Positions 5,456 to 41,733 of a stretch of 43,396 bases of DNA are shown here, one piece after another. The translations under genes and the position numbers were made by a program. Each line of letters starts with the position of its first letter. Position 1 is the stretch's first letter. Source of the stretch: a bacterium (lineage in GTDB: Bacteria > UBP15 > UBA6099 > JAJRTR01); the NCBI GenBank assembly GCA_024278215.1, contig JAJRTR010000167.1:1-43396 (forward strand), read 5' to 3'. Below the pieces are notes generated by a model, which saw only the letters and a list, made by a program, of their open reading frames with translations, did no database searches and had not been told where the DNA came from.

Positions 5456-5634
5456 GAGCCAGTTGCAAAATTATGTTCGAAGCGAGGTCGAGCAAAATTG
5501 GTCGGAAGCAAGGCGGAGGTGCAAAATCCCCGCAGGCGTACTTGTAGAGTACGTCGAGTATGATTTTGTGCCGACAACGCAACTGTTGCCAATTGCAGCC
5601 GACCGTAGCCTAATCAGAATTTTGCAATTGGCTC
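5456..5634 (+). repeat. Fold-back repeat, copy 1 (full length)
   Basis: This 179-bp imperfect palindrome starts GAGCCAGTTGCAAAATT and ends AATTTTGCAATTGGCTC. Its centre is a small hairpin, CGTACT-tgtag-AGTACG. Inner arm segments also pair, for example GCAAAATC with GATTTTGTGC. It fills the gap between the NHL protein gene and the next exported protein gene. The same element recurs at 7857, 20049, 28593, 36600 and, inverted, at 41556. Confidence 0.9.
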
Positions 5635-5676
5635 GTAAAAATGAAATTAACAACAATAAGTAAAACCGGAGAAGGA

Positions 5677-7770
5677 ATGAAAAGGCTTATCATTCTCATC
5701 GCTGCCGCCATTCTGTTTTTGCCTGTCTGCGCATTATGCGCCGTCGCAAAAACCGCCGGCGATTACGAACTGCTGCTTGAAACCGCTTCCCTCGGCGGAG
5801 ATGCGGGAGACATGGCGGGCAATATGGAATTGCATTGCGCAATCGGACAGCCCGTCGGCCATGATCAGTTCGCGCAGGATGTCTATGAACTATTCGGAGG
5901 ATTCCTCGGCGTTGTCGATGAGACCGCACCCACGATCAACATATCGAACCCCGCATCCGCAACGACAATCGGCGGCCCGGTCGGCATCACCGGATCCGTC
6001 TTCGACGAAAATATCACACAGTGGACTATAGAATACGGAGCGGGCGCATCGCCGTCCACCTGGGACCAACTCAGCGACGGAAACACGAATGTCACATCCT
6101 CGAACCTTGCCCCCTGGGACGCCTCGCTCCTTGGCGGCACCTACTCGGCACGCCTCACCGCAACCGACGACCGCGGCAACACCGCGACATCAGCGGTCAG
6201 CTTCACCATTGAAAACAGCCTCAGCATCAGCGGCACAATCCCAATGCACAAATGGGTATTCCTCTCGATGCCCCTCGGCGTCGACCCGGACGATCCGCTT
6301 TCCCTGTACGGCACAGATTACGAATACAAAGTATTCCGCTGGAACCCCGACAGTGAATACATGCAGGATTCCGGCAGATATGAATATCCCGAACACCTGA
6401 CGGCAGGCACAGGATACTGGGTGAAAGCGTACAACAAGGATTTGCCTTACAGTTACAACGGCGTCCTCTCGGACACAACACAGGATTACGCAGTCAGCGT
6501 GAAAGAAGGCTGGAACCAGATCGGCACGCCATACTCTGAAAACTACCCCTGGGCTTATGTGAAAGTCGGGCAGGGAGCCGAAACTTATGATATGGCGACT
6601 GCCGTTTCCATGGGCCTGCTTTCCCAGACAATCACTACATTCGATGCCGACATTAACGGATGGGTTCAGCACGATCTTTCAACCGACATGGAACCATACA
6701 CAGGCTACAACGTGCGGGCATACCAGGATTTGGAGCTTCTTTTCGACCCAGCCGTCATCATCTCCGGCAGTGTCCCCAGGCAGCTCTCACGAATCATACG
6801 GGTACCGCATGAATTCAACGTAAAAATATCCGCCGCCGCCACGCACTCCGCCGACCCGGACAACTACTTCGGCATATCACCCGCCGCCGCTCGCGAATTC
6901 GATCCCCTCGATTACGAAGAGCCATTCCATTCTCCAGGCGGTTACTTCACTTCATTATATTTCGACCACGACAACTGGCAGCGAATGGCCGGCAGGTATG
7001 CAAACGATTTGCGCAACGCAGCCGCCGTGACGGCTCAATCAGGCGACTGGGATTTCAACGTCGAAACAAATGAAACCGGACAGACCGTCACACTCTCATG
7101 GGACAGCTCTAAACTTCCCGCGGACCGCTATACCTTCACACTCGTGGACCTCACGACAGGCACTCGAATCGATATGACCACACAGTCCTCCTACGTATAC
7201 ACAGCAGCAGGCGAAGGCAATGCCCTGAACAGCTTCAGAATCGAAGTAAGGAGAAAAGACACCGTGCAGGTCGTGCGCTCGATCACACTCGCTCCCGGCT
7301 GGAACCTCGTCAGTGTACCGCTCGACCCGGAAGTCACAAGCGCCCTGGCTCAACTCGGCGACGACCTGCCCATACTCGACGTGTTCCAGTTCTTCGACGG
7401 GAAATTCTATCCCGCGGAAGAAGCCGACATACAGGCCGGTATCGGCTACTGGATACACGTCGATAAAAACACAGAGATTGACATAGAAGGAGAGTTGCCC
7501 GAAAACACCATCAAGGTACCACTCAGCATCGGATGGAACATGATCGGCAACCCCTACGAAGCTACCGTTCAGTGGAGCGACGACGCCATCTCATTTATAT
7601 GCAACGGCGCGCGAAAAACATTATCACAGGCAGTATCTGAAAAACTCGTCGTCGACGGACTGTACGAATATACCGGCGAGGGATACACCCCCGCCGAAGC
7701 ACTGCTTCCCTGGCACGGTTATTTCTTCAGGTCGGCATCAAAATGCGAACTGGAAATCACCGGTCCGTAG
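5677..7770 (+). CDS. Secreted protein with Ig-like domain and repeated 'GWN' modules
   Basis: The start at 5677 is chosen over the in-frame ATG at 5641 because GGAGAAGG sits just before it and the product then begins with a clean signal peptide (MKRLIILIAAAILFLPVCALCA). The mature part of this 697-residue protein begins with a short domain. A bacterial Ig-like/cadherin-like domain follows at about residues 80-175 (DETAPTINISNP to TSAVSFTIE). Then come related modules with the signatures WVFLSMPLGVDP, GYWVKAYN, GWNQIGTPY, GWNLVSVPLDP, GYWIHVDK and GWNMIGNPYE. Such modules occur in secreted proteins of many environmental bacteria, with no defined activity known to me. It follows fold-back repeat copy 1 and closes the exported-protein cluster. 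Confidence 0.8.
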   Translation: MKRLIILIAAAILFLPVCALCAVAKTAGDYELLLETASLGGDAGDMAGNMELHCAIGQPVGHDQFAQDVYELFGGFLGVVDETAPTINISNPASATTIGGPVGITGSVFDENITQWTIEYGAGASPSTWDQLSDGNTNVTSSNLAPWDASLLGGTYSARLTATDDRGNTATSAVSFTIENSLSISGTIPMHKWVFLSMPLGVDPDDPLSLYGTDYEYKVFRWNPDSEYMQDSGRYEYPEHLTAGTGYWVKAYNKDLPYSYNGVLSDTTQDYAVSVKEGWNQIGTPYSENYPWAYVKVGQGAETYDMATAVSMGLLSQTITTFDADINGWVQHDLSTDMEPYTGYNVRAYQDLELLFDPAVIISGSVPRQLSRIIRVPHEFNVKISAAATHSADPDNYFGISPAAAREFDPLDYEEPFHSPGGYFTSLYFDHDNWQRMAGRYANDLRNAAAVTAQSGDWDFNVETNETGQTVTLSWDSSKLPADRYTFTLVDLTTGTRIDMTTQSSYVYTAAGEGNALNSFRIEVRRKDTVQVVRSITLAPGWNLVSVPLDPEVTSALAQLGDDLPILDVFQFFDGKFYPAEEADIQAGIGYWIHVDKNTEIDIEGELPENTIKVPLSIGWNMIGNPYEATVQWSDDAISFICNGARKTLSQAVSEKLVVDGLYEYTGEGYTPAEALLPWHGYFFRSASKCELEITGP

Positions 7771-7856
7771 ATATTATCCCACATATTCAACCCCCAATGC
7801 GGGTTATGGGTTTGCTGTTTCGATAGACCTGGAATATAGAAAGCGCCAGTTGTAAC

Positions 7857-8034
7857 GAGCCAATTGCAAAATTATGTTCGTAGCGATGTCGAGCGAAATT
7901 GTTCAGAGCAAGGCAGAGATGTAACATCCCCGCAGGCGTACTTGTAAAGCATGTCGAGGACGATTTCGCGCCGACAACGCAGCTATGGACAATAGCAGCC
8001 GACCTCAGCAAAATCATAATTTTGCAATTGGCTC
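7857..8034 (+). repeat. Fold-back repeat, copy 2 (full length)
   Basis: This is a 178-bp copy with intact ends (GAGCCAATTGCAAAATTATG and AATTTTGCAATTGGCTC), lying between two convergent genes. It is very similar to the inverted copy at 41556-41733. The arms pair, for example ATTGTTCAGAGC near the 5' side with GCTATGGACAAT near the 3' side. The central hairpin is partly decayed. Confidence 0.9.
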
Positions 8035-8042
8035 TAGCGTTA

Positions 8043-9050
8043 TTACTTCCCCGGCTTTGTCCCGATAATCAGCGAAGAGTGCGACGGTATCTCTACGCGC
8101 TTCATTTTCTTAAAGCCCGCCGCCGACATCCACGACTTGATCTCCTTTTCAGTGTAGGAGGCGCCGCAGTCGGTGTTTACCAGCATATTGACGGAAAACA
8201 GCGCCGCCTGCACCGGCGAAGTTTTATTCGGATCGAGCACGAAATCGCGCACTACAAGCCGCCCGCCCGGGTTCAGGGCAGTGTAGCCTTTTTTTATAAT
8301 ACGCTTGTTGACAGCCGGAGAATATATGTGGATGATGCTGGACATAAAAACAAGGTCGTAACCGCGCCCGAGTGCATCCTTCGTGAAGTCGCCTTCCACG
8401 GTGCCGACCCTGTCGCTCATACCCGATTCCTCGATGAACTCGCGTGTTGTCTCCAGCGTCGCCGGCATATCGAAGACATTGCCGGTGATTTCAGGATTCG
8501 CCCGGATCATCTCGAACAGGAAAATCCCCGGCCCACCGCCGACATCCAGCACCCTCCTCACATTTGAAAGGTCGATGCTGCCCGCGACCCGGCGCGCCGC
8601 ATCTCGCCCGACGTCCGCCATAGCCCTGATGAAGTGCCGGGTCCTCTCCCTGACAGACTGCTCGCTCGTGTCGGGTTTCGGGATCGGTTTGCCGGTTCTT
8701 ATCGCCGTTGGGAGTTCGAGCCAGGCGCGGCGCATATTTATCACGTGATTGACCATGTTACCCATGTATGAAGATGACGCCGGATCGAGATATTCACGCG
8801 ACAGTTTTGACATATAAAACATATCTTTGCGTTTTGTCAACAGGTCGATCGCCACAAGCGCATTAAGAAGTATCTCTGTGCCGCGCCTGTCAGTCCCGAG
8901 CGCGTTTGCAACTTGAACAGCCGTGCGCGGTTTTTCCGCTATAAGGTCGAACACTCCAAGTTCCGCACCGGCGCACAGCACATCTGTGAAGCGGTGTCCC
9001 GACATGAGTCTTTCGATTTCGTCCCGTAAATCCCTGTTCTTTTTTGTCAT
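8043..9050 (-). CDS. SAM-dependent O-methyltransferase, dimerising winged-helix type
   Basis: This 335-residue product has the layout of the Methyltransf_2 family. An N-terminal winged-helix dimerisation region (about residues 1-90, including VLCAGAELGVFDLIAEKPRTA and GTDRRGTEILLNALVAI) is followed by a Rossmann methyltransferase domain. The SAM-binding motif I is VLDVGGGPGIFLFEM, and the GGRLVVRDFVL segment is typical of this family. Members methylate hydroxyl groups of small aromatic or polyketide substrates; the substrate here cannot be told. The ATG at 9050 is chosen because GGAGGG lies a few bases upstream; a longer frame from a TTG at 9071 would start before that site. The gene ends beside fold-back repeat copy 2 and is not clearly in an operon. 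Confidence 0.88.
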   Translation of the reverse strand: MTKKNRDLRDEIERLMSGHRFTDVLCAGAELGVFDLIAEKPRTAVQVANALGTDRRGTEILLNALVAIDLLTKRKDMFYMSKLSREYLDPASSSYMGNMVNHVINMRRAWLELPTAIRTGKPIPKPDTSEQSVRERTRHFIRAMADVGRDAARRVAGSIDLSNVRRVLDVGGGPGIFLFEMIRANPEITGNVFDMPATLETTREFIEESGMSDRVGTVEGDFTKDALGRGYDLVFMSSIIHIYSPAVNKRIIKKGYTALNPGGRLVVRDFVLDPNKTSPVQAALFSVNMLVNTDCGASYTEKEIKSWMSAAGFKKMKRVEIPSHSSLIIGTKPGK

Positions 9051-9217
9051 CGCCGGACCCTCCGAAAACAAGCTTTTCTATATATTCATTGAATGTTATC
9101 ACAGAATCTCCCCGCGTTTCTTTTCGCGAACCTTAACTTCCCTTATCAATCCGTCCGGCCACCATTATAACACCAGTTATCCTGCGCAGGTTCCCGTGCC
9201 GTGCTGTTAAATGGAGA

Positions 9218-9239
9218 CAGGGCTCTTGCAGGAGCCCTG
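9218..9239. other. Perfect 8-bp stem hairpin between genes
   Basis: CAGGGCTC and GAGCCCTG are separated by six bases. The hairpin lies just past the stop of the minus-strand TPR gene, where a transcript end is expected. Neither flank has a T-run, so it is not a classical intrinsic terminator. It may be a processing or stabilising hairpin. Confidence 0.5.
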
Positions 9240-9273
9240 CTATGCTGCTGAACATCCGAAAAACGATCTGCAA

Positions 9274-9819
9274 CTATTTCGCCGATTTTATTTCTTTCTT
9301 CTTTTCCGCTTTCGTGAGTTGCGTGTTGATCTTTTCGGCTTTCTCGAAGGCGGCCAGCGCGGCTTCGGTTTTCTTCATGGTTTTCAGGACGTGGCCATAG
9401 GACATATAGAGGTGATAAGCCTGTTTGCCGACAGGCGGGGCCTTTTTTATACCGGCTTCGAGCACTTCAGCCGCTTTTTCGGGCTTACCCATTTCGAGGT
9501 AGACCTGGCCGAGGTAGTCGAACATGTCGAGTTGCATGAGCGCGCCGTCGCTGTTTTCCATGCCTTCGGGAAACTCGAGCGCGACAATGGCTTCAAGCTC
9601 TTTGGCCGTCTCCGCCAGTTTCTTTTTTTCGTATAGAAGGTCCGCTTTTTCATAGTGAACCATCGCTTTTTCAAACGCGAGGTCATACTGCTGCTTGATT
9701 TCCTGGGGCGACATCTTCTTTTCCGTTTTTTGTTCCTGTGCCGCTGCCGGTGCCGCGGTGAACACCGCCGCCAGCATGATCACCAGCACTACCGCCATGA
9801 TGATGTTCCGTTTTGTCAT
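9274..9819 (-). CDS. Exported TPR protein
   Basis: The 181-residue product has a strong signal peptide (MTKRNIIMAVVLVIMLAAVFTAAPAAAQ). Lys- and Glu-rich TPR-like helices cover about residues 45-170 (YLGQVYLEMGKPEKAAEVLEAGI and YGHVLKTMKKTEAALAAFEKA). It is probably periplasmic. AAGGAGAT precedes its ATG. The start codon overlaps the stop of the upstream putative anti-sigma gene as ATGA, which implies translational coupling. As the last gene of the sigma operon it may be an envelope component whose dosage follows that sigma factor; this is inference. Confidence 0.82.
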   Translation of the reverse strand: MTKRNIIMAVVLVIMLAAVFTAAPAAAQEQKTEKKMSPQEIKQQYDLAFEKAMVHYEKADLLYEKKKLAETAKELEAIVALEFPEGMENSDGALMQLDMFDYLGQVYLEMGKPEKAAEVLEAGIKKAPPVGKQAYHLYMSYGHVLKTMKKTEAALAAFEKAEKINTQLTKAEKKKEIKSAK

Positions 9820-10373
9820 CTGGGAAATCTCCTTTCCCGCCTGTAATTTCTGTAATATGTTCCGGGCTCGGTGCGCACCGAGTTGAATTGCATCCGGCGA
9901 ACTTTCCGGTTGTAGTTTTCCGAGAACAGCGATTCTCTGTAACCGTAGCCCGGTTCCGATTTCATTCTTTCCGTAAATGGTATATACATTTTATCATACT
10001 TTTCCAGTTGGGCTGCAATATTTCTGTCTGTTTGTTCCCTGACCATCCAGAGAGTGGGAACGATAAAAACGAAGAAAGCAGCGGCGATGGCGGCGCGGAG
10101 CCGGCGGCGGCGGCGGACATGCAGCGGCTGGGCGGGCAGTGCTGTCGGAGCTACTTTCACGCCGTGTGCTTTCTCCGCCTCGCGAACCAGCCTTGCGCGC
10201 AGGGTGCCGGAGAACTCCTGTTTGAGCCGCGGGCAGGTGTCGGCTGCGCTCATGACGACGCGCGCGGTCTCGGCGGCGAGCAGAATTTCCGCATCCGCGC
10301 CGGGATCGACATCCGCGCCGTCGAGGTAATCCCCGAGCAGCTTTGCAAGTTGTTTTTCTTTTTCTTCTTCCAT
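9816..10373 (-). CDS. Putative membrane anti-sigma factor
   Basis: The protein has an acidic cytoplasmic N-terminus (MEEEKEKQLAKLLGDYLDGADVD), one transmembrane segment at about residues 95-115 (AAIAAAFFVFIVPTLWMV) and an extracytoplasmic tail rich in Arg and Tyr. Size, single-pass topology and position directly after an ECF sigma gene fit an anti-sigma factor. No zinc-binding HxxxCxxC motif is visible, so it would be a non-ZAS type. The start is uncertain: an in-frame GTG at 10418 would add 15 residues, and neither start has a strong ribosome site. It overlaps the downstream TPR gene by four bases. Confidence 0.62.
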   Translation of the reverse strand: MEEEKEKQLAKLLGDYLDGADVDPGADAEILLAAETARVVMSAADTCPRLKQEFSGTLRARLVREAEKAHGVKVAPTALPAQPLHVRRRRRLRAAIAAAFFVFIVPTLWMVREQTDRNIAAQLEKYDKMYIPFTERMKSEPGYGYRESLFSENYNRKVRRMQFNSVRTEPGTYYRNYRRERRFPR

Positions 10374-10424
10374 ATCTATTACCGTCCGTGCGGTGGTTTT
10401 CCGGCGTTGTCGATACACCGCGCT

Positions 10425-11015
10425 TCAGAGTTCCCCGTACTTCTTAATGTACGCCTCTCTGAACGACTTACACGCCCTGAAAAAAACCACGTCGAATGTC
10501 TCGATCGTCACTCCGAGCGCATCCGCGCATTCTTCCCTCGATTGCTTTTCCTTCAGCCGCATTATGACGGCGCTGGCGTAGCGCTTGTTTATTGTGCCAA
10601 GCACTTCTTCGATCCGGTCGCCGAGTATGCGGCTGAAATCTTCGACGACTACCGCATCTTCAGGCTGGTACGACGTGTCGGACTGATAGTCCAGCACCGC
10701 GCCGTCGACAGTCGAGTGTCGGATCGATTTGGAAATATGTTCGCGACACTTGTTTATTGCGATCATTCGCAGCCAGAAAAATATGCTCCTGTCACGCCAT
10801 TCGAAAGCCCCTATCTTGCCGAGAGCCATGAGGAATGTATCCTGGAGCACTTCTTCGGCTGCTTTTTCGTCGCGCAGGCGCGGAAATATCACTGTCTGAA
10901 ACAATGTGTTTTTGTACGCATCGTAAATCGCGCCGAAAGCTTCCCCGTCACCGTTCCGGGCTCTTTCGATAAGCGCGCGTTCTTCTTCGAGCGAAAGTTT
11001 GGATTCAAGCGCCAT
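10425..11015 (-). CDS. ECF-family RNA polymerase sigma factor
   Basis: The 196-residue product has the two sigma regions of the extracytoplasmic-function class. Region 2 covers about residues 25-95 (GEAFGAIYDAYKNTLFQTVI, AEEVLQDTFLMAL and IFFWLRMIAINKCREH). Region 4 covers about residues 135-190, with a helix-turn-helix at KEKQSREECADALGVTIET. The ATG at 11015 is preferred to an upstream GTG at 11054 because the sequence between them is not sigma-like. The stop lies about 50 bases before the anti-sigma ATG. It probably transcribes its own operon in response to an envelope signal; a TATAAT-like box lies about 10 bases before the ATG. Confidence 0.88.
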   Translation of the reverse strand: MALESKLSLEEERALIERARNGDGEAFGAIYDAYKNTLFQTVIFPRLRDEKAAEEVLQDTFLMALGKIGAFEWRDRSIFFWLRMIAINKCREHISKSIRHSTVDGAVLDYQSDTSYQPEDAVVVEDFSRILGDRIEEVLGTINKRYASAVIMRLKEKQSREECADALGVTIETFDVVFFRACKSFREAYIKKYGEL

Positions 11016-11084
11016 CGTAGCTTCTATTATATATGGTCCGAAACAACATTTCACTACACAGGGTGGACAGAATCATTATTATCA

Positions 11085-11107
11085 CGGATTTACCACAAAG
11101 AAATCTG
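11085..11107. repeat. Small palindromic repeat (CGGATTT...AAATCTG), degenerate copy
   Basis: CGGATTT and AAATCTG flank the loop ACCACAAAG. The better-preserved relatives at 24297 and 38940 share the ...CACAAAG loop. It lies in the 304-bp gap between the divergent sigma and Hsp70 genes. Apart from AT-rich stretches, nothing else was recognised in that gap. Confidence 0.5.
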
Positions 11108-11318
11108 TTAACGGAATCAGGAAAAAGCGAAAGATCGGCACGAGGAACTGCGAGAGACAGAAAGTAATTTTATTAAGGACTTTACAATACTATTGCCGAC
11201 ATATTAATATAGTTAACTATAGGCAATGTCCGATCTTTGGCTATTAGCGTTTAAAATAATTCGCCAGAGTGCGGTATTGTAACTATACCAGCATTATTTG
11301 AAGGTCAGGTGAACACCT

Positions 11319-13034: not shown

Positions 13035-13714
13035 TGGCGGCGGATGCGCGGGAAAAGATAAAAAAATACTGCGCTGTACTCGGTGTGGCGGAAGGCGCCG
13101 GGGCAAAAGAGCTCAAAAAGGCCTACCACTGCAAAGCGGCTAAACTTCACCCCGACGTATGCCCGAACGATCCCATGGCAACCGAGGCTTTCAGGAAAGT
13201 CAACATTGCTTATCAGTATCTTAAAAAAGATGCGCGTGGCAGGAAGAAAAAATCACGTCCGAAGATCAACAAGGTAACGCGCGTCCCGGCTTCGGACTTC
13301 ACGGCGTCGCGGCGTCGTGCCGTGCCGCCTGCGCTGGACCTGCCCCCCGAAGAACTCGCCTTCCGGCTCAAATATTCCAGCAACACTTATGTTCGCATTC
13401 ACGCTGTACGCACGCTCCGCAAAACCGGGGGCAAGGAGGCTGTGTGGGCTGTTCTGCCTGCTATCGAGGACACCAACCGGCAGGTGGCCGCCGAGGCAGT
13501 AGCCGCGCTCGGGATGCTGGGCGCCCGCATCGCCGTTCTGCCGCTGATCCAGCTTTATAACAAAGCCGATACGATACTACAGTTACGTATCCAGTGGGCG
13601 CTGAAAAGGATCGATTCGCCAATAGCAGCAAGATTCGTTTCCCGCATCTCGCCGGAAAAAGAGGAATCGACCACCCTCGAAGCCCCCCGCTCCGGCGAGG
13701 GCTCGACAGCCTGA
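13034..13714 (+). CDS. J-domain co-chaperone fused to HEAT repeats
   Basis: Residues 8-68 form a DnaJ J-domain: YCAVLGVAEGAGAKELKKAYHCKAAKLHPDVCPND contains the essential HPD motif, followed by AFRKVNIAYQYLKKD. After a basic linker, residues 105-205 hold HEAT-like alpha repeats (NTYVRIHAVRTLRKTGGKEAVWAVLPAIEDTNRQVAAEAVAALG), a protein-binding scaffold. The glycine-rich and zinc-finger regions of true DnaJ are absent. The J-domain should stimulate the ATPase of the overlapping Hsp70, and the HEAT part may choose the client. The ATG at 13034 overlaps the TGA of the Hsp70 gene; a GTG one codon earlier is the alternative. Confidence 0.85.
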   Translation: MAADAREKIKKYCAVLGVAEGAGAKELKKAYHCKAAKLHPDVCPNDPMATEAFRKVNIAYQYLKKDARGRKKKSRPKINKVTRVPASDFTASRRRAVPPALDLPPEELAFRLKYSSNTYVRIHAVRTLRKTGGKEAVWAVLPAIEDTNRQVAAEAVAALGMLGARIAVLPLIQLYNKADTILQLRIQWALKRIDSPIAARFVSRISPEKEESTTLEAPRSGEGSTA

Positions 13715-13755
13715 AACTTTTTGCCGGGCGCATGGAGAGAAACAGAAGGTACACA

Positions 13756-15405: not shown

Positions 15406-15417
15406 CTGCGTCTGCTC

Positions 15418-19984: not shown

Positions 19985-20048
19985 AGCTGCATTCTCCCCA
20001 TTCAGAACCGTTTTGCAAAAGTTCGTAATTCCATATATGTATTCATTC

Positions 20049-20224
20049 GAGCCAATTGCAAAATTACGTTTGTGACGAGTCCGAACGATATTATTCCGAG
20101 CAAGGCAGAGACGCGAAATCCCCGCAGGCGTACTATATAGTACGTCGAGGACGGTTTCGCGCCGATAACGCGGCTCGGAGCAATTGCAGCCGGAAGCAGT
20201 AGAACTGAATTTTTCAATTGGCTC
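20049..20224 (+). repeat. Fold-back repeat, copy 3, inside the efflux operon
   Basis: This 176-bp copy has its two arms co-varied relative to other copies: CGCGAAAT pairs with GTTTCGCG, and CCGAGC with GCTCGG. Direct repeats ATTC (20045-20048 and 20225-20228) flank it. It lies between the TolC and fusion-protein genes, 64 bases before the latter's ATG, and its last bases overlap the TolC TGA at 20223-20225. Confidence 0.9.
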
Positions 20225-21749
20225 ATTCATTGACATAATCCTCCAGCGAATCGACACCGCAGGAATATGCCAGTTGTGCTTTGGCGGTTTCGTAGTCGAA
20301 ATAAGCTTTCGCACTGTTGAGGCGTGCCTGCGTGAGCGTGTGTTCGGCATCTATCAGGTCTATCTGCGCCGTAACACCTTCTTTGAACCCAATATCCGCC
20401 ATCCTGTACGCCTCGTCTGCTATTTCAAGAATTACTTCGGAAGATTCAATTCGCTGGTTTGCTTCGATCACATCAAGGTATGCGGATTTTACCTGCAACT
20501 GGATACCTTCCCGAAGGTCCGTTTCGGAGAGATTCAGGTTTTCACGGCGCTTGAGGACCTGTGCTTTTTTCGCGGAGGCGAGACCGTTGTCAAAAACAGG
20601 TATCTCGCCTGCGATGATAGCGCGCCAGGCATCCTGCGAGGCGAATGTGCTGCCGCGGTTGTGAAATGTCCAGGTGCCGGCAAGTGAAAATACAGCTTTC
20701 TTCTCTTCGAGCTCGGCGGCGAGTTCCGTTGCATTCTGCGCCAGCTCGATCTGCTTGATCTCAGGTCGCGACACGAAAGCAAGCGCGTAATAGAAATCCA
20801 GCGGCTTGAGGTTCATCCGCCTGTAAGCGCTTTCGTCGTTCAATTCCGTTTTTCTGCTCACGGGGAATCCCAGGAGATTATTGAAAGACATAATCGACAA
20901 CGCGTGTCCTTTGTTCGTCATGATAAGTTTTTCTTTTGCCTGTTCGAGGTCGCTGCGCGCGCGGATAACATTGAGTTTCGGCACAACCCCCGCGTTGAAT
21001 CTGCTGTTGGCCGCCTCGACATGCGCACGGGCTCTCTCGACAGATTCTTCCTGTGCCTCGACCGCCCTTTCGGCCAGCAAAACCTGGTAGAACGACTTCC
21101 TGACATTCAGCATCAACTTCCTGCGCTCGAGTTCCACGTCCAGCTCTTTCACTTCGCTGTCACTTCTGGCGGCCGCTACGGCCTTCCTTTTCTTTCCGAA
21201 TGTCAACAGTGGCTTGCTTATCTTCAGTTCCGCACCATGTTGCCAGTTCTGGTTTATCTCCGCCGAAAGAAAACCGAACTTCGGCGCCGGATCAGTGATG
21301 GTATACATCGACTCGTCTTTTAGATTATCCGGGAGGTCCCACGGCTGCGGCAACACGCCGGGGATGTATATCGGTGCCACATCGTAATAGGTGTACGGCA
21401 TAGCAAATGAAGTCGGGTCATGCACCCTCTGGTAATTAGCTTCCACTTTCATATTCAGTCCGAACTGCTTTTTTGTTTCGGAAACTTTTTCCCATGATGC
21501 TTCGAGCTTGTTGACACTCGCCTTCAGCGTCCTGCTCTGTGCGACGGCGATATCGACAGCATCCGCGAGAGATAGCGATTTACCTTCGAGAGTGCCGTTG
21601 TCGAGGCTGATCTCCGACGGGCATTGCACTGCCCCGGTCGACTTTTCCGCATTCGTATCCGCGCCCGCGGGGTTTGCCGCACACAAAAACAAAAGCGATA
21701 GCAAAGCAACAGGCGCTATGCGTCGCAAACCCGATGCAGATGACGACAT
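20223..21749 (-). CDS. TolC-like outer-membrane efflux protein
   Basis: The start at 21749 gives a 508-residue protein with a signal peptide (MSSSASGLRRIAPVALLSLLFLCAANPAGA). Two repeats of the outer-membrane efflux protein family follow, roughly residues 55-285 and 300-500, with typical helical stretches such as RKSFYQVLLAERAVEAQEESV and LTQARLNSAKAYFDYETAKAQL. Trimers form the outer-membrane channel for the RND pump encoded downstream. It is the first gene of the operon; a sigma70-like promoter and TetR-type operator lie 130-190 bases upstream. An AGGGG ribosome site sits close to the ATG. The stop codon lies in the terminal bases of fold-back repeat copy 3. Confidence 0.9.
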   Translation of the reverse strand: MSSSASGLRRIAPVALLSLLFLCAANPAGADTNAEKSTGAVQCPSEISLDNGTLEGKSLSLADAVDIAVAQSRTLKASVNKLEASWEKVSETKKQFGLNMKVEANYQRVHDPTSFAMPYTYYDVAPIYIPGVLPQPWDLPDNLKDESMYTITDPAPKFGFLSAEINQNWQHGAELKISKPLLTFGKKRKAVAAARSDSEVKELDVELERRKLMLNVRKSFYQVLLAERAVEAQEESVERARAHVEAANSRFNAGVVPKLNVIRARSDLEQAKEKLIMTNKGHALSIMSFNNLLGFPVSRKTELNDESAYRRMNLKPLDFYYALAFVSRPEIKQIELAQNATELAAELEEKKAVFSLAGTWTFHNRGSTFASQDAWRAIIAGEIPVFDNGLASAKKAQVLKRRENLNLSETDLREGIQLQVKSAYLDVIEANQRIESSEVILEIADEAYRMADIGFKEGVTAQIDLIDAEHTLTQARLNSAKAYFDYETAKAQLAYSCGVDSLEDYVNE

Positions 21750-21988: not shown

Positions 21989-22018
21989 AATTATGTTCGA
22001 GGCGAGGTCGAGCGAAAT
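21989..22018 (+). repeat. Fold-back repeat, 5'-arm fragment
   Basis: About 30 bases (AATTATGTTCGAGGCGAGG and onward to AGCGAAAT) match the 5' arm of the full-length copies almost perfectly, without the terminal GAGCC end or the 3' arm. This is a truncated remnant. Confidence 0.7.
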
Positions 22019-22037
22019 CAGCCTGGTTTATGTTATT

Positions 22038-22813: not shown

Positions 22814-22835
22814 GGAAGGTCCCTGTGGGAAGTGA

Positions 22836-22940
22836 TGAAAAATCCGGGTAAGCAGACGTACTCGCAGAGATTTCGCGGCGGCAACGCAGCTCCGGACAAT
22901 TGCAGCCAACCGCAGTAGAACAGCCTTTTGCAAACGGCTC
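22836..22940 (+). repeat. Fold-back repeat, 3'-half fragment
   Basis: From about AAAAATCC onward the sequence follows the full-length repeat: GCAGACGTACTCG, then GGCAACGCAGCTCCGGACAA, then TTGCAGCC, ending GCAAACGGCTC. The 5' arm is missing. Confidence 0.75.
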
Positions 22941-24279: not shown

Positions 24280-24296
24280 AAACTCAGACTCCTAAC

Positions 24297-24322
24297 CCGG
24301 ATTTTCTCACAAAGAAATCCGG
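24297..24322. repeat. Small palindromic repeat (CCGGATTT...AAATCCGG)
   Basis: An 8-bp perfect stem, CCGGATTT and AAATCCGG, has the loop TCTCACAAAG. It lies in the predicted leader between the promoter and the GTG start of the ADP-ribosylglycohydrolase homologue. Sibling copies are at 38940 and, degenerate, at 11085; a similar stem with another loop is at 35200. Confidence 0.65.
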
Positions 24323-24344
24323 AAAATCGGCAGTATTTGTATTG

Positions 24345-24423: not shown

Positions 24424-24495
24424 GAGCCAACTGCGAAATTACTTATTTTAGCCAACTGCGAAATTCAGTTCTACTACTTCCGGCTGCAATTGCTC
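24424..24495 (-). repeat. Fold-back repeat, internally deleted copy
   Basis: Starting GAGCCAACTGCGAAATT, the end sequence is repeated once (AGCCAACTGCGAAATTCAG). It then continues as TTCTACTACTTCCGGCTGC and ATTGCTC, which is the reverse complement of the 3' end of copy 3. The rest is deleted. It directly abuts the 142-bp element at 24503. Confidence 0.7.
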
Positions 24496-24502
24496 ATTTA
24501 TT

Positions 24503-28592: not shown

Positions 28593-28768
28593 GAGCCAAT
28601 TGCAAAATAATGCTTGTTGCGAGGCCGAGAGAAATTGTTCCGGACAGAGAAGAGACAAAAATCCACACAGGGGCATTCTCGGTGCACTTTGAGAAAGTTT
28701 TTTCGCCGTCAACGATGTACGGGGCAATTGTAGCCGGACGCAACAGGACATAATCTTACAATCGGCTC
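28593..28768 (+). repeat. Fold-back repeat, copy 6 (diverged)
   Basis: This 176-bp copy has recognisable ends (GAGCCAATTGCAAAATAATG and TTACAATCGGCTC) but a diverged centre. Several arm pairings persist. It occupies the divergent gap between pilT and fliN. Confidence 0.8.
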
Positions 28769-33660: not shown

Positions 33661-33688
33661 TAATGCAACGTATCAACTGAGCCGCTTT

Positions 33689-35122: not shown

Positions 35123-35199
35123 CCGGTACCGCCTGTATTTTCCTTTCATACCGCGTCATAATTATAAGATGCAGCACATGCGTCCCGCCTGTGCAGTTC

Positions 35200-35231
35200 A
35201 GCCCGGCTTTCTTCTTCGAGAAATCCGGGCT
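35200..35231. repeat. Hairpin AGCCCGG...CCGGGCT at the end of the solute-binding gene
   Basis: AGCCCGG-C-TTT and AAA-T-CCGGGCT pair around CTTCTTCGAG with one mismatch. The stem resembles the CCGGATTT family but the loop differs. It overlaps the stop of the minus-strand gene and may be its transcript end. Confidence 0.45.
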
Positions 35232-36525
35232 ACTTCCTGTATCTTTTCCTTGCCTCATTGAGCCACTTGTTGATGTACTCATTTTTCACAACAGCATCCG
35301 ACCACTTCTCGCCTGCAAGCGACATGGCATCCTCTTCCGTGATGGGCGGCGCGAGCAGCGCGGCGCGTTTTTTCTTGTTCTTCGACACCTTTTCCCAGGC
35401 CGCCGCCAGGTCTTTGTGTGTGTCAATGACGTAAGCGCCGATAAGGTCGTTAAGCAGTCCCCACCTCTTCGAACCCTTCTCGAAGTCATAAGTGAAACCT
35501 TTCTTCTGCGCGAACGGATTTACCGTAACATTTGATTTACCGGCATAATCTTTGTAAAGCGAGGGCAGCACACACATCTTGTTGAGCGACACATCCACCG
35601 GCCCGCCCGGCACACCCTTTTTGTACAGCCATATCTTCTGGCCCGCCGGGCTCATCGTAAACTCGATATACGCTTCGGCAACTTTCTTGTTTGGCGCTCC
35701 TTTCAGCATCGCTATCGGGTCCGGCGTAATAACAGTCGCCTGCTGCGGCAGCACGAATCCCAACCGTTTAGGGCCAAGGTCCTCGATGGCCGAAAACGCA
35801 TAAGTATCTATAGAAAGAGCAACCGCAGTTTCGCCCACTGCTAGATCCTTGCTGATCTGGCCTGAACTCTTGGGAAAATTCCGCACATTCGCGCCAGTAG
35901 CCAGAATAATCTCCCAGCCGCGCTCCCATCCATAAGCCTGCAGGATAAGCTCGTACATAATGTGAGTGCTTCCGCTGTGGCGCGGGTCGCTCGAACCGAC
36001 AAGTTCATAAAAATCAGGGTCCGCAAGATCAACCCAACTCTGCGGCGTTTCCAGTCCGTACATTTTGAGCAGTTTCTTGTTGTAGAGAATACCGAATCCG
36101 GCCAGTGAAGAGCCATACCAGCGATACTCACTGTCATAGAGCGGTATTCCGTTGAGGTCCTTCGGTATAGTGCCGATGATTTTATCCGGCAGTTTGTAAG
36201 GTTGCAAAAGACTGTCTTTGGATAGTTCGATATAGGGGTCGATGCCGCCACCGTAGAAAATATCTACATCGATTCCTTCCGGACTGCGCGAGAAACCCGA
36301 TTTGATGAACCGCAGATCGTCCGATGTGCCGCCCTGGTCCAGCCAGGTTATCTCGACATCTCCGCCCCGGTTCGCGGCGTACCATTTCCCGAATCCCCTT
36401 GTAAACTCCGTTCGGATGCCCTCCCAATGGGGTGATATTATCACCAGTTTGTCCGCCGCTCGCGCCGGCCCCGACGCAATCACTACAACCATAAATAAAA
36501 GCAGTATTACTTTGAAATATCTCAT
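35230..36525 (-). CDS. Periplasmic extracellular solute-binding protein (iron/FbpA-like class)
   Basis: The 431-residue protein has a signal peptide (MRYFKVILLLFMVVVIASGPARA). The periplasmic binding fold begins KLVIISPHWEGIRTEFTRGFGKWYA and includes DIFYGGGIDPYIELSKDSLLQPY, GFGILYNKKLL and FTMSPAGQKIWLYKKGVPGG. It resembles ABC transporter binding proteins of the iron(III)/polyamine group and would capture a ligand for import. No permease or ATPase gene adjoins it, so its partners must be elsewhere. AGGAG precedes the ATG. Confidence 0.88.
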   Translation of the reverse strand: MRYFKVILLLFMVVVIASGPARAADKLVIISPHWEGIRTEFTRGFGKWYAANRGGDVEITWLDQGGTSDDLRFIKSGFSRSPEGIDVDIFYGGGIDPYIELSKDSLLQPYKLPDKIIGTIPKDLNGIPLYDSEYRWYGSSLAGFGILYNKKLLKMYGLETPQSWVDLADPDFYELVGSSDPRHSGSTHIMYELILQAYGWERGWEIILATGANVRNFPKSSGQISKDLAVGETAVALSIDTYAFSAIEDLGPKRLGFVLPQQATVITPDPIAMLKGAPNKKVAEAYIEFTMSPAGQKIWLYKKGVPGGPVDVSLNKMCVLPSLYKDYAGKSNVTVNPFAQKKGFTYDFEKGSKRWGLLNDLIGAYVIDTHKDLAAAWEKVSKNKKKRAALLAPPITEEDAMSLAGEKWSDAVVKNEYINKWLNEARKRYRK

Positions 36526-36599
36526 CCTGAAACTCCTGTTGATGCTTTATATGTTGCCACGACAGTCATAAGTCTATCATATATTATTCACCGCCACTA

Positions 36600-36778
36600 G
36601 AGCCAATTGCAAAATTATGTTCGAAGCGAGGTCGAACGAAATTCTCCAAAAGCAAGGCGGAGGTGCAAAATTCCCGCAGACGTACTTGCAGAGTACGTCG
36701 AGGAAGATTTTGCGCCGACAACGCAGCTGTTGGCAATTGCAGCCGACCGCAGCCGAATCAGAATTTTGCAATTGGCTC
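36600..36778 (+). repeat. Fold-back repeat, copy 7 (full length)
   Basis: This 179-bp copy has intact ends and the central hairpin CGTACT-tgcag-AGTACG. GCAAAATT pairs with GATTTTGC, where copy 3 has CGCGAAAT and GTTTCGCG. It lies in the divergent gap between the solute-binding and DUF115 genes. Confidence 0.9.
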
Positions 36779-36923
36779 CTTGTATTATTGCATTGAAAAT
36801 GTTAAAATTCATTTAACTCGAAGCAATAACATCCGCCTTATTTCGAACAATTTCGCACGGTCTCACGACAGAATATAATTTTCACAATAGGTTCAGGAAT
36901 TGTTAATGGTAAAGGAAACCATT

Positions 36924-38294
36924 ATGTCTTTCTTTGAAAAGAATCTTAAGGCGCTCACCAGTGCGGATTTCCCCGGGAAATATGAAATCATCAAGAAGCT
37001 GCGCTCGGAAGTACCACTTGAGAGGGTGGAAACATCGGTTCAAGATTGTCCCACGGCTTTTGGGTTTGATGGAATAAGAAAAGTCGCACTTCACAGCACA
37101 AGGAATCCTGTCAAAGAGGCTGAGAGATGGATAGCAACAAATAAGCTCGATGAACATAATCATCTTGTGGCACTGGGTATTGCTCTTGGTTATCATGTAG
37201 AAGCGGCTTTGAATCTTTATCATTCCGAATCAAGAATAATCGTTGTAGAATTGAATCTTAAACACTTCGCAACTGCGCTACATGCTCGTGATCTGTCCAC
37301 CATATTAGATAACGATAGAATAAAATTGTTTCTCGGACCTATGGACATTATCCGTAATGAATTTATTTCGGAAACAGAATATCTGAAAGAGAATGACGGT
37401 GTGGAAGTTGAGGTAATGATTCATGAGCCGTCTTTACGGACATTGCCGAAGTCCGAGCAACAGTCTCAAGAAATATTTTACTATATAAGAAACATCAGGA
37501 TTTCAACTAAAAATACACGCCAACAGAGACTTCAGCAAAAGAATCAGGCAGGGAATGAGGAAGTTGTAAAAGCATCAGTGTCGGTAGAAACGCTAAGGGG
37601 CAGTCAATTGGGGCGCACGGCGATATTGATCGCGCCGGGACCCTCGCTGCAGAAAAACCTGCATCTTGTTGCTCTGGCTGCTGGACATGCTGTCACAGTG
37701 TGCCTGGACGCTGCTCTTAAGCCTGCGGTAAATGCGGGGCTGGTGCCGGATTACGTAGTTACCATTGATCCGGCTGATATAATCTCTGATTTTTTTGATT
37801 TCTCATTCAGCAACAAAACCGGGTTGATTTTTTTCCCGGGTTCGAACATGAAGGCGGTACGCCGCTTTGCGCCGGAGAACCGTTTTGTAGCAATGCCGTC
37901 GGACATTCCCCCGCCGTCAGGCAGAGAACGTGGTTTCGAGGGAATGCTGTACCGGAGCAGTTCCGTGATCATCACAGCGCTGGACTTCTACCGGCATATA
38001 GGCTGCAATTCAATCATTCTTGTCGGGGCGGATCATGCTGTGCGCAAAGACAGGTCGCACGTGGAAGGAGCTGCCACACAATCCCGCAAATCGAGCCGTC
38101 TGATCAAAGCCGGGGGCTATTTCGGCGTAGAAGTCAACGTCCCTGAAGATTACTATATATATTTGCGTGAAATCGAAACTTTTTTTGAAAAATATTTTCC
38201 AGGATGTCAGCTCATCAATGCCACGGAAGGTGGCAGTAGAATAAACGGTTGCAGGCAGTCGAGTTTCCTGGATGCTGTCGTAAATATTTTATAA
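36924..38294 (+). CDS. DUF115 / Maf-type motility accessory factor
   Basis: The C-terminal half carries the DUF115 (MAF_flag10) hallmarks: GRTAILIAPGPSLQKNLHLVALAAGHAVTVCLDAALKPAVNAGLVPDYVVTIDP and GCNSIILVGADHAVRKDRSHVEGA. Family members transfer nonulosonic acid sugars to flagellin or act as a 6-hydroxymethylpterin pyrophosphokinase; the Maf role fits a window with fliN. The 456-residue product starts at ATG 36924, with AAAGGA eight bases upstream; a TTG at 36900 is rejected. The first 640 bases are clearly more AT-rich than the rest and than the neighbours. Confidence 0.85.
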   Translation: MSFFEKNLKALTSADFPGKYEIIKKLRSEVPLERVETSVQDCPTAFGFDGIRKVALHSTRNPVKEAERWIATNKLDEHNHLVALGIALGYHVEAALNLYHSESRIIVVELNLKHFATALHARDLSTILDNDRIKLFLGPMDIIRNEFISETEYLKENDGVEVEVMIHEPSLRTLPKSEQQSQEIFYYIRNIRISTKNTRQQRLQQKNQAGNEEVVKASVSVETLRGSQLGRTAILIAPGPSLQKNLHLVALAAGHAVTVCLDAALKPAVNAGLVPDYVVTIDPADIISDFFDFSFSNKTGLIFFPGSNMKAVRRFAPENRFVAMPSDIPPPSGRERGFEGMLYRSSSVIITALDFYRHIGCNSIILVGADHAVRKDRSHVEGAATQSRKSSRLIKAGGYFGVEVNVPEDYYIYLREIETFFEKYFPGCQLINATEGGSRINGCRQSSFLDAVVNIL

Positions 38295-38516
38295 GAAGCT
38301 CCCGCGTGAAATCTTTCCTGTCTCTCTACTGTCCGGTCACACTAATCAGCCCAATGATAAAAAAAGTTTTGCAAAGATTATCCTAACCCGGCAAAACCGG
38401 AACCAAAAAGGCCGCATTTTCGTGCCCAAACAAATACGGTTTGAGCACGTCACACAGAGTTTCATCGTTCCCAAGGTCTACCACTACATGAGTTTAAGGA
38501 GTAATCAGGAAGATTA
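38295..38516. other. Intergenic stretch with no recognised gene
   Basis: Stop codons interrupt all frames. A stretch CCTAACCCGGCAAAACCGG recalls the leader region before 24297 (CCTAACCCGGATTTT). No clear gene, RNA or terminator is seen. Confidence 0.5.
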
Positions 38517-38562
38517 TTGACAATATCGACTGAATTACATACCATACATGAATATATGTTCA
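38517..38562 (+). promoter_or_regulatory. ArsR promoter and overlapping operator
   Basis: TTGACA (38517-38522) and TACCAT (38540-38545) are 17 bp apart. TGAATATATGTTCA (38549-38562), an inverted repeat with one mismatch, follows at the expected start site. It matches the AT-rich TGAA..TTCA style of ArsR/SmtB operators, so metal-relieved autorepression is likely. Confidence 0.65.
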
Positions 38563-38578
38563 CACATGAGGTGTAATC

Positions 38579-38938
38579 ATGCAAGATGGACCTGCAAAAA
38601 CATGTTCAACGAAATACGTCCATAAGGATGTGGTGGAGCGAGTCGAGAAGAATATGAAACCTGAGGATACGCTTCTGCGGCTTGCCGAGTTTTTCAAGGT
38701 TTTCGGCGATGTGACACGCCTTAAGATACTGACCGCGATCACCGGGAACGAACTGTGTGTGTGTGATATTGCATGTATCACAGGCATGAGCGATTCGGCT
38801 ATATCGCACCAGTTGCGGATTCTGCGCAATACAAGACTTGTCAAATATCGACGTGAGGGCCGTGTTGTCTTCTATTCGCTGGACGACGAACATATCTCCG
38901 GCATCATTACGGAAGGAATCAGCCATGTCGAGGAGTAG
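38579..38938 (+). CDS. ArsR/SmtB-family metal-responsive repressor
   Basis: The 119-residue winged-helix protein carries the metal-sensing helix ELCVCDIA, a variant of the CadC/ArsR ELCVCD motif. The recognition helix region is SDSAISHQLRILRNTRLVKYRREGRVVFYSLDD. A short N-terminal Cys (KTCST) may add a ligand. It should release its operator on binding soft metals or arsenite. GAGGTG precedes the ATG. The next gene, a metal permease, is the natural target. Confidence 0.9.
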   Translation: MQDGPAKTCSTKYVHKDVVERVEKNMKPEDTLLRLAEFFKVFGDVTRLKILTAITGNELCVCDIACITGMSDSAISHQLRILRNTRLVKYRREGRVVFYSLDDEHISGIITEGISHVEE

Positions 38939-38939
38939 C

Positions 38940-38964
38940 CCGGATTTCTCACAAAGGAATCCGG
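38940..38964. repeat. Small palindromic repeat (CCGGATT...AATCCGG)
   Basis: CCGGATT and AATCCGG flank TCTCACAAAGG, almost the same loop as at 24297. It lies directly after the ArsR stop and before the permease gene. Confidence 0.6.
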
Positions 38965-39013
38965 TGATAAGCGTCACACAATTGACATGTACTATAAATG
39001 TAAGGGTGAAAAG

Positions 39014-40294
39014 ATGATGGATACAATAATTGGGTTCTTACAGGGATTCTGGGAGATAATGGGGGAGATGTCTCCGTATCTCCTGCTGGGCTTTTTGATC
39101 GCCGGCATACTTTCCGTGTTTTTTACAGAGAAGACTGTCGAGAAATATATAGGACGCCGCGACACGGCATCTGTATTCAAGGCATCTCTTTTCGGTGTAC
39201 CGCTGCCGCTGTGTTCGTGCGGTGTAATCCCCGTGGGGATGTCGCTTCGCAGACATGGCGCGGGGCGCGGCGCGGCTACGGCGTTTCTTATTTCCACGCC
39301 CCAGACGGGCGTTGACAGCATACTCGTCACATTCAGTCTGCTGGGGCCGTTGTTTGCGATAGTGAGGCCGATAGCGGCGCTTGTGACCGGCGCTGCGGGC
39401 GGCATGCTTGTCAACGGCTTTGTGGGCAAAGAGAAAACTACTGCGGCTACTGCTAATACGCAACCGGGCTGCACCGGCGGATGTTGCGGCAGGGACGAAG
39501 GCACAGAGACGAGTGAAAGCCGGTTTGAAAGGGCTCTTCGTTATGGGTTTCTGACCCTGCCGGGCGATATCGGAAAGTATCTCATCGTGGGACTCGTACT
39601 CGCGGCGGTGGTATCGGCGCTGATTCCCGCCGACTATCTTTCGTCTTACCTGGGGCGCGGTCTTGTGCCCATGTTTGCGATGATGCTGATAGGTATCCCG
39701 ATGTACGTCTGTTCGACAGCTTCCGTGCCCGTTGCGGCGGCGCTCATGGCCGCCGGGGTGTCGCCCGGTGCGGCGCTTGTCTTCCTCATGACCGGCCCGG
39801 CCACAAATATTGCTACAATTACGACAATATGGAGCGTTCTGGGAAAACGCACTGCCCTGATTTATCTGGGTACAATTGCCGTGGGGGCGATGCTGTCCGG
39901 ACTCCTGCTCGACGCGCTTGCCGTTAATGTCGCACAACACCTGAACACTACAAATATATTGATGCTGCCAGCATGGGTTGGAAACCTGAGCGCGGTGCTT
40001 CTGATAGGCGTGATTGCCACCGCACTCATGAAAAGAAAAGGACAGGCACACATGCCGGTGACGGAAGCAATGGCAGAGTCGGTATCCGAAAATATCGCTG
40101 TTTATCTTGAGATCAAGGGTATGAAATGCAGCCACTGCGTCAACCAAATCACGCGCTCACTGAATGAACTGAGCAAAGTCAGCGGAGTCGACATCGACCT
40201 GCAGACCGGGCAAAGTACCATAACCGGCAGGAATCTCGACCGGGAAGAACTTATCGGTATTGTTACAAGCCTGGGATATGGAATCGAAGAGTGA
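39014..40294 (+). CDS. SO_0444/ArsP-like metal permease with C-terminal HMA domain
   Basis: The ATG at 39014 is preferred (AAGGG seven bases before); the 426-residue protein has about eight TM segments in two homologous halves, each with a Cys signature: PLPLCSCGVIPVGMSLRRHGAGRGAATAFLISTPQTG in the first and PMYVCSTASVPVAAALMAAG with FLMTGPATNIATI in the second. The central loop is Cys-rich (GCTGGCCGRD). The last 70 residues form a heavy-metal-associated domain with GMKCSHC. Relatives export copper, zinc or organoarsenicals. The HMA tail probably hands metal to the channel. The ArsR gene upstream supports metal-induced expression. Confidence 0.9.
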   Translation: MMDTIIGFLQGFWEIMGEMSPYLLLGFLIAGILSVFFTEKTVEKYIGRRDTASVFKASLFGVPLPLCSCGVIPVGMSLRRHGAGRGAATAFLISTPQTGVDSILVTFSLLGPLFAIVRPIAALVTGAAGGMLVNGFVGKEKTTAATANTQPGCTGGCCGRDEGTETSESRFERALRYGFLTLPGDIGKYLIVGLVLAAVVSALIPADYLSSYLGRGLVPMFAMMLIGIPMYVCSTASVPVAAALMAAGVSPGAALVFLMTGPATNIATITTIWSVLGKRTALIYLGTIAVGAMLSGLLLDALAVNVAQHLNTTNILMLPAWVGNLSAVLLIGVIATALMKRKGQAHMPVTEAMAESVSENIAVYLEIKGMKCSHCVNQITRSLNELSKVSGVDIDLQTGQSTITGRNLDREELIGIVTSLGYGIEE

Positions 40295-40344
40295 AGGGAG
40301 ACCGCTTTTCATCGGGGTACATTATGGTGTATATTGAAAGATAG

Positions 40345-40458
40345 ATGGAGACGACCATCCGAAGGGTGGCAAAGGATTTCCCGGCTGTGGTGCTGACCGG
40401 GTTGCGCCGGTCTGTCAAAACTACTTTATCGGATGCTGTTGATACAATCCGGCTTTAA
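40345..40458 (+). pseudogene. Remnant of an AAA-type ATPase (N-terminus only)
   Basis: The 37-codon fragment METTIRRVAKDFPAVV, then LTGLRRSVKTTLSDA, then a stop, recalls the start of archaeal/bacterial ATPases of the type 'R...VLTGPRQVGKTT'. The Walker A Gly before the Lys is replaced by Val, and the frame ends at a TAA. No further ATPase sequence follows, so it is a decayed gene. Confidence 0.55.
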
Positions 40459-40488
40459 TAAAATTCCAACATGTATGAAACGGGTTAG

Positions 40489-40626
40489 AACTTCTCGAAA
40501 TACGAGAAAATCAACAGCGGCTTTGAAGCTATGCGGGATAAGTTCGTTTCACTGGAGTTGCCTGATGTCAGGGAGTCGGCTTTTCTAATCACAGGGGATT
40601 ATCTGCCGTTTATTCTCCACTTATAA
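40489..40626 (+). pseudogene. Unrecognised open remnant before the TIM-barrel gene
   Basis: A 45-codon frame without a good start (NFSKYEKINSGFEAMRDKF and on to DYLPFILHL) runs between stops. Its source was not recognised. It may belong to the same decayed region as the ATPase remnant. The rest of 40295-40693 holds nothing else recognisable. Confidence 0.35.
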
Positions 40627-40693
40627 TTTTTCATGAGGTGCAATATATGTCTGATCTTTTACAGTTGTCAAATAACAAATCCGGAGGAAACTG

Positions 40694-41497
40694 ATGAAAC
40701 TTGCTTTGCAGGAAGGTTTATATGATGACGGAGGATTCGGAAAATTCGTTGAAAGAGCGCAGGAATGGGGTTTCGATGCTGTTGAGGTATGGGGTGAAGG
40801 GCTGTCCGACAGGCTGACAGAGGTGAAAAAAGTTGTTTCCGATGCCGGAATGCCCGTGTCGTCGATCTGTCCTGGCGGCGGCGGCATTCGTGGTTCTTTG
40901 CTGAGCGGCGACGAGGCTGGGAGAAGCGCGGCGGCGGCAGACATCGAAACTTTGCTCGAGATGGGTGCTGAACTCGGCGGTGCGGGCCTGATAATTGTAC
41001 CGGAATTCGGGGTTGAAAAATTCATGGCTCTCTACCCCGATCTCAGCGATTTCGAGTCGAGAAAACGCATGTTCGCCGACCGGCTCGCGCCGCTCGCCGA
41101 GAAAGCCGCCACACTGGGCGTTGATATCCTGATCGAGCCTCTCAATCGTTACGAGGCGTTCTTTATGCTTACTGTCGGCCAGGCCGCCGAGATTTGCCGT
41201 TTGACAGGCAGTCCCGCCGTGAAGGTCATGGCCGATCTCTTTCACATGGGCATCGAGGAACGCAGTGTTATCAATGCGCTTGCCACGAATTCGGGCTACA
41301 TCGCGCATATTCATCTTGTCGACACCAACCGGAAACTCCCCGGCTTCGGCGACCGCGATTTCCTGCCGGTTTTCAAAACACTGGACGAAAAGAGTTTCGG
41401 CGGACATCTTTGCCTCGAATGCGGCATACCCGGCGACCCGTTTCATGATATTCCGAAATCGATTGAGACGATTAATATGATTCTGGATAAACTATAA
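40694..41497 (+). CDS. Xylose isomerase-like TIM-barrel sugar epimerase/isomerase
   Basis: This 267-residue TIM barrel has the AP-endonuclease-2 / xylose-isomerase layout. Metal-ligand candidates are IEPLNRYE (first Glu), MADLFHMGIEE (Asp/His), HIHLVDTNRKLPGFGD (His) and LCLECG (last Glu). Such enzymes isomerise or epimerise sugars and keto-sugars; the substrate is unknown. TCCGGAGG lies before the ATG. The gene stands alone between decayed sequence and a fold-back repeat. Confidence 0.85.
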   Translation: MKLALQEGLYDDGGFGKFVERAQEWGFDAVEVWGEGLSDRLTEVKKVVSDAGMPVSSICPGGGGIRGSLLSGDEAGRSAAAADIETLLEMGAELGGAGLIIVPEFGVEKFMALYPDLSDFESRKRMFADRLAPLAEKAATLGVDILIEPLNRYEAFFMLTVGQAAEICRLTGSPAVKVMADLFHMGIEERSVINALATNSGYIAHIHLVDTNRKLPGFGDRDFLPVFKTLDEKSFGGHLCLECGIPGDPFHDIPKSIETINMILDKL

Positions 41498-41555
41498 AGC
41501 TTGTGCGTTCTTGCAAGCGACTCTTCCGGCAAAATATTCAAGAGGGTATCCATTA

Positions 41556-41733
41556 GAGCCATTTGCAAAATTATGATTCTGCTGCGGTCGGCTGCTATTG
41601 TCCATAGTTGCGTTGTCGGTGCAAAATCGTCCTCGACGTACTCTACAAGTACGCCTGCGAGGATTTTACACCTCCGCCTTGCTCTGAACAATTTCGCTCG
41701 ACCTCGCTACGAACATAATTTTGCAATTGGCTC
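41556..41733 (-). repeat. Fold-back repeat, copy 8 (full length, inverted)
   Basis: This 178-bp copy lies in the opposite orientation to the others; its reverse complement is nearly identical to copy 2 (7857-8034). Direct repeats ATTA (41552-41555 and 41734-41737) flank it. It sits after the TIM-barrel gene. Confidence 0.9.

Follow-up and report, generated by a model that had tools for sequence, protein, structure and literature searches.

A gene-free MITE family of a UBP15 bacterium and a fold-back core probably shared with differently ended elements in several phyla

The stretch of DNA analysed here, the 43,396-nt contig JAJRTR010000167.1 of a bacterium of the UBP15 lineage (the window), carries six full-length copies of a dispersed, gene-free repeat of about 178 bp with the ends GAGCCAATTGCAAAATT / AATTTTGCAATTGGCTC. 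Our results make it quite probable that these copies belong to a family of miniature inverted-repeat transposable elements (MITEs) moved in trans by a DDE-type transposase, that their core is that of a cross-phylum family of elements with several unrelated ends, and that the new ends were most likely gained by a core-bearing element. It looks as if this core has moved between different mobile elements. A MITE is usually regarded as the relic of a single insertion sequence (IS) and is defined by its ends, whereas here it is the inside that is conserved between phyla and the ends that change. As far as we could check, a cross-phylum core with exchanged ends is the notable feature and is undescribed in the open-licence literature searched, such an absence being weak evidence; a literature text search with part of the core returned nothing relevant. 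A core with changing ends would make MITE evolution modular and would explain how a non-coding element can outlive its transposase, and the 23-base core pattern would serve as a marker for tracing it in genome collections.

Copies in the host genome and evidence for transposition

The host genome comprises 4.55 Mb in 207 contigs. When the 17-bp end was used as query (at most two mismatches), 332 forward and 330 reverse matches were found in it, as compared to 0 for the reversed-pattern control, and because of these 662 matches we estimate the family at about 330 copies. Copy statistics were taken from sampled stretches totalling 1.19 Mb (26% of the genome, not chosen at random), which held 140 profile matches, 82 of them full length. 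Nearly all full copies measure 176-181 bp, none contains a gene, and with 70-99% identity to the consensus they fall into several subfamilies of different age. An initial annotation of the window had reported six gene-free copies of near-constant length with shared ends and had called for a search for more; the six were confirmed (176-179 bp, 68-92% identity to the copy at 7857), as was the presence of further copies in the genome. The density it gave, one copy per about 7 kb, holds for the window; copies there are about twice as frequent as in the genome sample (one full copy per 14.5 kb).

Identical 4-mers flank 40 of the 60 full copies in the first 0.81 Mb sampled, where 1.46 would be expected with flanks re-paired at random, and duplications of 2, 3, 6 or more bases stayed at background level. 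In the larger 1.19 Mb sample, 51 of the 82 full-length copies showed an exact 4-bp target duplication. Duplicated 4-mers are rich in A+T and follow no fixed sequence; in about half of the cases a C precedes or a G follows them. The copies have diverged least at their ends (4.0% vs. about 9% in the interior, p=0.001), and deletion derivatives of 39, 46 and 106 bp retain both ends and the duplication. Taken together, the duplications, the conserved ends and the end-keeping derivatives identify a transposon that is mobilised via its ends, the enzyme making a 4-bp staggered cut in the target. We assign this enzyme to the DDE type from general knowledge of enzymes with such a stagger. Being shorter than about 500 bp, free of transposase genes, bounded by terminal inverted repeats and target duplications, and dispersed in hundreds of mainly intergenic copies, the elements have the features of MITEs, in agreement with the earlier proposal of a successful non-autonomous element. 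An apparent 1443-bp composite (L182) proved to consist of two distinct insertions, each having its own AAAA duplication.

The genes next to 56 copies were co-directional in 30 cases, divergent in 14 and convergent in 12, and in the same set the orientation of the element relative to the genes was random, so that its position is not tied to one gene arrangement, as had been noted from the window copies. Wholly within a crude set of open reading frames (ORFs) lay 11 of 60 copies, vs. 72% of random positions, and the family is thus mainly intergenic. The window-family ends are absent from all six same-order relatives (G001-G006). Plasmid and phage collections gave no match, and the five matches to the end sequence in viral contigs are about the chance level for so large a collection. 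The analysis also flags hundreds of unannotated repeats by which assemblies are broken: many contigs of the relatives start or stop within the element.

A probable common core with different ends

The fold-back core is built around GCAGGCGTACT-n-AGTACGYCGAGG. Among 386 sampled genomes this central pattern occurred in only one besides that of the host, and a scan of 84,980 species genomes gave at least 89 stretches carrying it. The taxa among the matches listed include Deltaproteobacteria, Acidobacteriota, Binatota, Spirochaetaceae, Nitrospirae, Aegiribacteria, Syntrophobacterales and a Lysobacteraceae metagenome-assembled genome (MAG); nearly all of these core-bearing genomes are MAGs, so that single taxon assignments may be wrong. 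Exact core matches were found in 11 of 297 sampled Acidobacteriota genomes, with up to 14 per genome. When the centre was taken out of the window consensus, its arms aligned to elements with different ends at z-scores of 11.0 (L032), 9.2 (L087), 6.5 (L123), 5.8 (L074) and 4.5 (L033), with collinear blocks that include TTCGTAGCGAGG, CAAGGCG, CAACGCAG and CCGCAGYAGAA. One match to the central pattern (L138) was discarded, as it lies only within an apparent protein kinase gene.

At least four unrelated ends are carried by core-bearing elements, namely GAGCCAATTGCAAAATT in the host genome (the window family), YTAR followed by CCYGSATT.. in many genomes, CAGGATGTTGACAAAGG in MGSF01 and ATACCAATTTGCATTCA in JADGQN. 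Further types come from a single instance or one genome each: GAGGCTCTAACAAAA in the same-order relative G005, CCACATGCCAGGTCG in L142 and a set of its own in JACPFM. For the YTAR type, both ends could be recognised in 21 copies, 20 of which have identical YTAR flanks. In three core-bearing genomes, IS1380 genes are delimited by ends of this YTAR + CCYGSATT kind (CTAG + CCCGGATATCTCA ... TGAGAAATGCGGA + CTAG in L164; CTAG + CCTGCATTATTCATGA, one end, in L165; GTGAATAATGCAGA + TTAA, the right end, in L166), and the core was not detected within these three IS1380 loci. A type II MITE shares only the ends with its IS (PMC10969869), and the core-bearing carriers with YTAR ends look like type II MITEs because only the ends are common to them and their IS. 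The YTAR target and the ends common to IS1380 elements identify these relatives as IS1380-derived MITEs, whereas the window family, with its GAGCC... ends and duplications other than YTAR, is not of this kind; homology to a known IS end, considered in the initial annotation, was thus found for the relatives only. A core element with IS1380-type ends also lies on a viral-classed contig (L054:3170-3361; IMG/VR contig 3300037091_000452), which may be a transfer vehicle or a misclassified contig.

The host genome itself has a second MITE family, with ends of the IS1380 type, about 205 bp long (YTAR + CCCGGATTTCTCACAAAGAAATCCGG...GTGAAATATGCGGG + YTAR) and present in at least 40 copies, with 25 end matches in the sample. 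Loci include L145:14435-14650 as well as L147, L151 and L222, with ends YTAR + CCCGGATTTCTCACAAAG..., and two ends lie in the window on the + strand, at 24293-24329 (CTAA + CCCGGATTTTCTCACAAAGAAATCCGG) and 38935-38966 (GTAG + CCCGGATTTCTCACAAAGGAATCCGG). The inner motifs TACAAGGCGCG and AACGCAGTAGAAC are common to both families, and the apical hairpin is absent from the second. The host's own IS1380 is only a weak remnant, and sequence related to the second family is found in the same-order relatives G002, G003, G004 and G005. In several separate loci (L145:12700-13020, L154:7264-7400, L161:780-863 and L220:7638-7970) pieces of the one family are fused to pieces of the other, each time at CTAT in the right half of the window family, as if at a hot spot or in an amplified chimera. 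We infer that the IS1380-ended stock is the older and the GAGCC-ended family the later one, an order that is not proven. Between YTAR sites there are also remnants about 27 bp long, hairpin insertions with hardly anything but two back-to-back ends CCCGGATTTCTCACAAAGAAATCCGGG (L156 at about 4839; L224, reverse, at about 8440; L220, reverse, at about 19536).

Mechanism and alternative explanations

In the mechanism that we propose, a transposase would bind the ends, cut the target with a 4-bp stagger, preferably at C-NNNN-G, and insert the element, and repair of the staggered cut would produce the 4-bp duplication. For lineages with IS1380 ends, IS1380 most likely supplies the transposase. The window family would have arisen when a core-bearing element, probably IS1380-ended like the second family, gained new ends that were recognised by another transposase, and amplification would have followed. 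The enzyme may since have been lost, or it may lie outside what was assembled, sampled or searched.

Several points weigh against this explanation. A transposase with matching ends, which the initial annotation had proposed to look for, was not found in this genome, of which 26% was read and in which only some transposase families were sought. At whole-genome scale there were three DDE_Tnp_1 genes, none bearing window-family ends, a sole IS1380 match that is weak, stop-containing, C-terminal and adjoining a copy, two weak partial matches of the IS1182 type, and no match to PF13586; within the sampled 26% no pair of good window-family ends encloses a transposase. An end pair around a Y1 pseudogene (L222, 277-1032) has poor ends and was judged to be chance. 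A partner in the remaining genome or in another transposase family is possible. The partnership of IS1380 with core elements is read from shared ends rather than from observed movement, and the target duplication from occupied sites. The central pattern was the search key, its invariance is therefore by construction, and homology was judged outside the centre; for most of the distant relatives the arms alone have no significant similarity to the window family. A profile with the central hairpin masked also gave nothing significant, pairwise tests of the arms being more sensitive.

The family resembles known bacterial MITEs, among them Chunjie of Geobacter uraniireducens (178-235 bp) and QMITE2 of Coxiella (PMC10969869); by description these are of similar size, lack genes, have inverted ends and flanking duplications, lie between genes, fold back on themselves and also occur as partial copies. 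Descriptions of known MITEs go by the ends and the parent IS, whereas the core found here is common across phyla to elements with unrelated ends. IS1380 elements in three core-bearing genomes match many core-bearing relatives in their ends and YTAR duplication, and the second family has ends of this type too, whereas the window family has GAGCCAATTGCAAAATT ends and no YTAR target, and the core was not found in the IS1380 loci examined.

The genome holds six Y1_Tnp genes or pieces that resemble RAYTs (transposases associated with repetitive extragenic palindromes, REPs), and the elements might accordingly be substrates of these Y1 (HUH) transposases, as REPs are for RAYTs or as the inverted repeats of published TIRtrons may be. 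Three of the six (L246, L247 and L251; G000 C56, C6 and C112) adjoin, on their 5' side, an old copy of the element or a fragment of one, with p=0.026 for that side, the conserved block TTCGTAGCGAGG contains GTAG, and TIRtrons, RAYT-like genes that have long inverted repeats, have been published together with the repeat families around them, Acidobacteria included (PMC3733652). Even so, we regard this explanation as very improbable, since the copies lie on one side only and frame no Y1 gene, the p-value for adjacency on either side is 0.095, and six genes are few. Moreover, 4-bp duplications and long conserved inverted ends are not expected of HUH transposition, and both are clear here. The likeness to REP/REPIN systems with their RAYTs and to TIRtrons, the latter compared by description, is one of dispersed palindromes in a genome with Y1 transposase genes, three of them beside a copy. 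It stops at the 4-bp duplications, the conserved 17-bp ends and the 178-bp unit, as opposed to a GTAG-tagged unit of 20-40 bp, and at the lack of a Y1 gene framed by a window-family element.

The different ends could also have come about without any exchange, either in one lineage whose ends merely diverged or with a core taken from inside an IS, as in a type I MITE. Transposon ends do drift, and those of the IS1380 type show gradual variation (CCTGCATTTCTCACC, CCCGCATTATTCATGAA, CCCGGATTATGCATAGG), but GAGCCAATTGCAAAATT, CAGGATGTTGACAAAGG, ATACCAATTTGCATTCA and CCCGGATTTCTCAC look unrelated, the targets differ (YTAR vs. C-NNNN-G) while the core blocks remain collinear, and the IS1380 loci examined were without the core; we therefore consider this unlikely. 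A bolder extension of the exchange of ends, which we put forward tentatively and as somewhat doubtful, is that the core is an independent genetic module, repeatedly captured by unrelated transposon ends, carried across phyla and kept because its fold benefits the carrier. Such a benefit might consist in helping transposition or in shielding the insertion from transcription.

The element folds back on itself along its entire length, with -86 kcal/mol for the oriented strand vs. -67 for the complement, and the oriented strand folds better in 19 of 23 relatives. In comparisons between families, double changes preserve many of the pairs, and the apical stem has a fixed G-U or G-C pair, as if it were the oriented strand that folds. 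All this would suit a functional structured RNA, whose transcript or hairpin might serve the host or the element, for example by ending or stabilising a message or by binding a protein. We find such a role rather improbable, however, as the orientation to genes is unbiased, private mutations at paired sites in the genomic copies give G-U and A-C about equally often (16 vs. 12), conservation of the hairpin scarcely exceeds that of the remaining interior, and the G-U excess is only weak when pairs are chosen without strand bias. The inverted ends covary too, so that covariation alone is no proof of an RNA, and an Rfam search with the window and eight relatives gave nothing relevant. The RNA family that had been suggested as an alternative to a mobile element is thus not supported for the copies as they stand. 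Since there is no strand-specific pairing constraint, no orientation bias and no marked conservation of the hairpin, any importance of the fold would lie in the active lineage and not in settled copies.

Copies and fragments in the window

The six window copies are spread over five different subfamily groups, and insertion therefore continued over a long period. The copies at 5456-5634 and 36600-36778 (both +) belong to the 179-bp subfamily; the former is flanked by GTGA/GTAA, possibly a decayed 4-bp duplication, and for the latter, as for the copy at 7857-8034 (+), a duplication is not clear. At 20049-20224 (+) the copy has the 4-bp duplication ATTC (20045-20048 / 20225-20228), and the inverted copy at 41556-41733 (-), of the main and youngest subfamily, has the 4-bp duplication TAAT (in element orientation). 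The copy at 28593-28768 (+) is the most diverged, with 70% identity to the consensus. The central CGTACT/AGTACG hairpin, initially ascribed to all six, is intact in most of them but decayed in this copy and partly decayed in that at 7857.

Profile matches also revealed fragments of the family, with a right half at 22828-22940 (+, 56 bits) and weaker matches to a left arm at 21989-22021 (+, 22 bits), a right arm at 24450-24497 (-, 22 bits) and possibly a left arm at 36830-36892 (-, 20 bits). Apart from the repeat family, the window has two large ORFs, at 165-1670 and 3294-5377, that are built of protein-coding repeats in tandem, the periods being near 370 and 183-189 bp.

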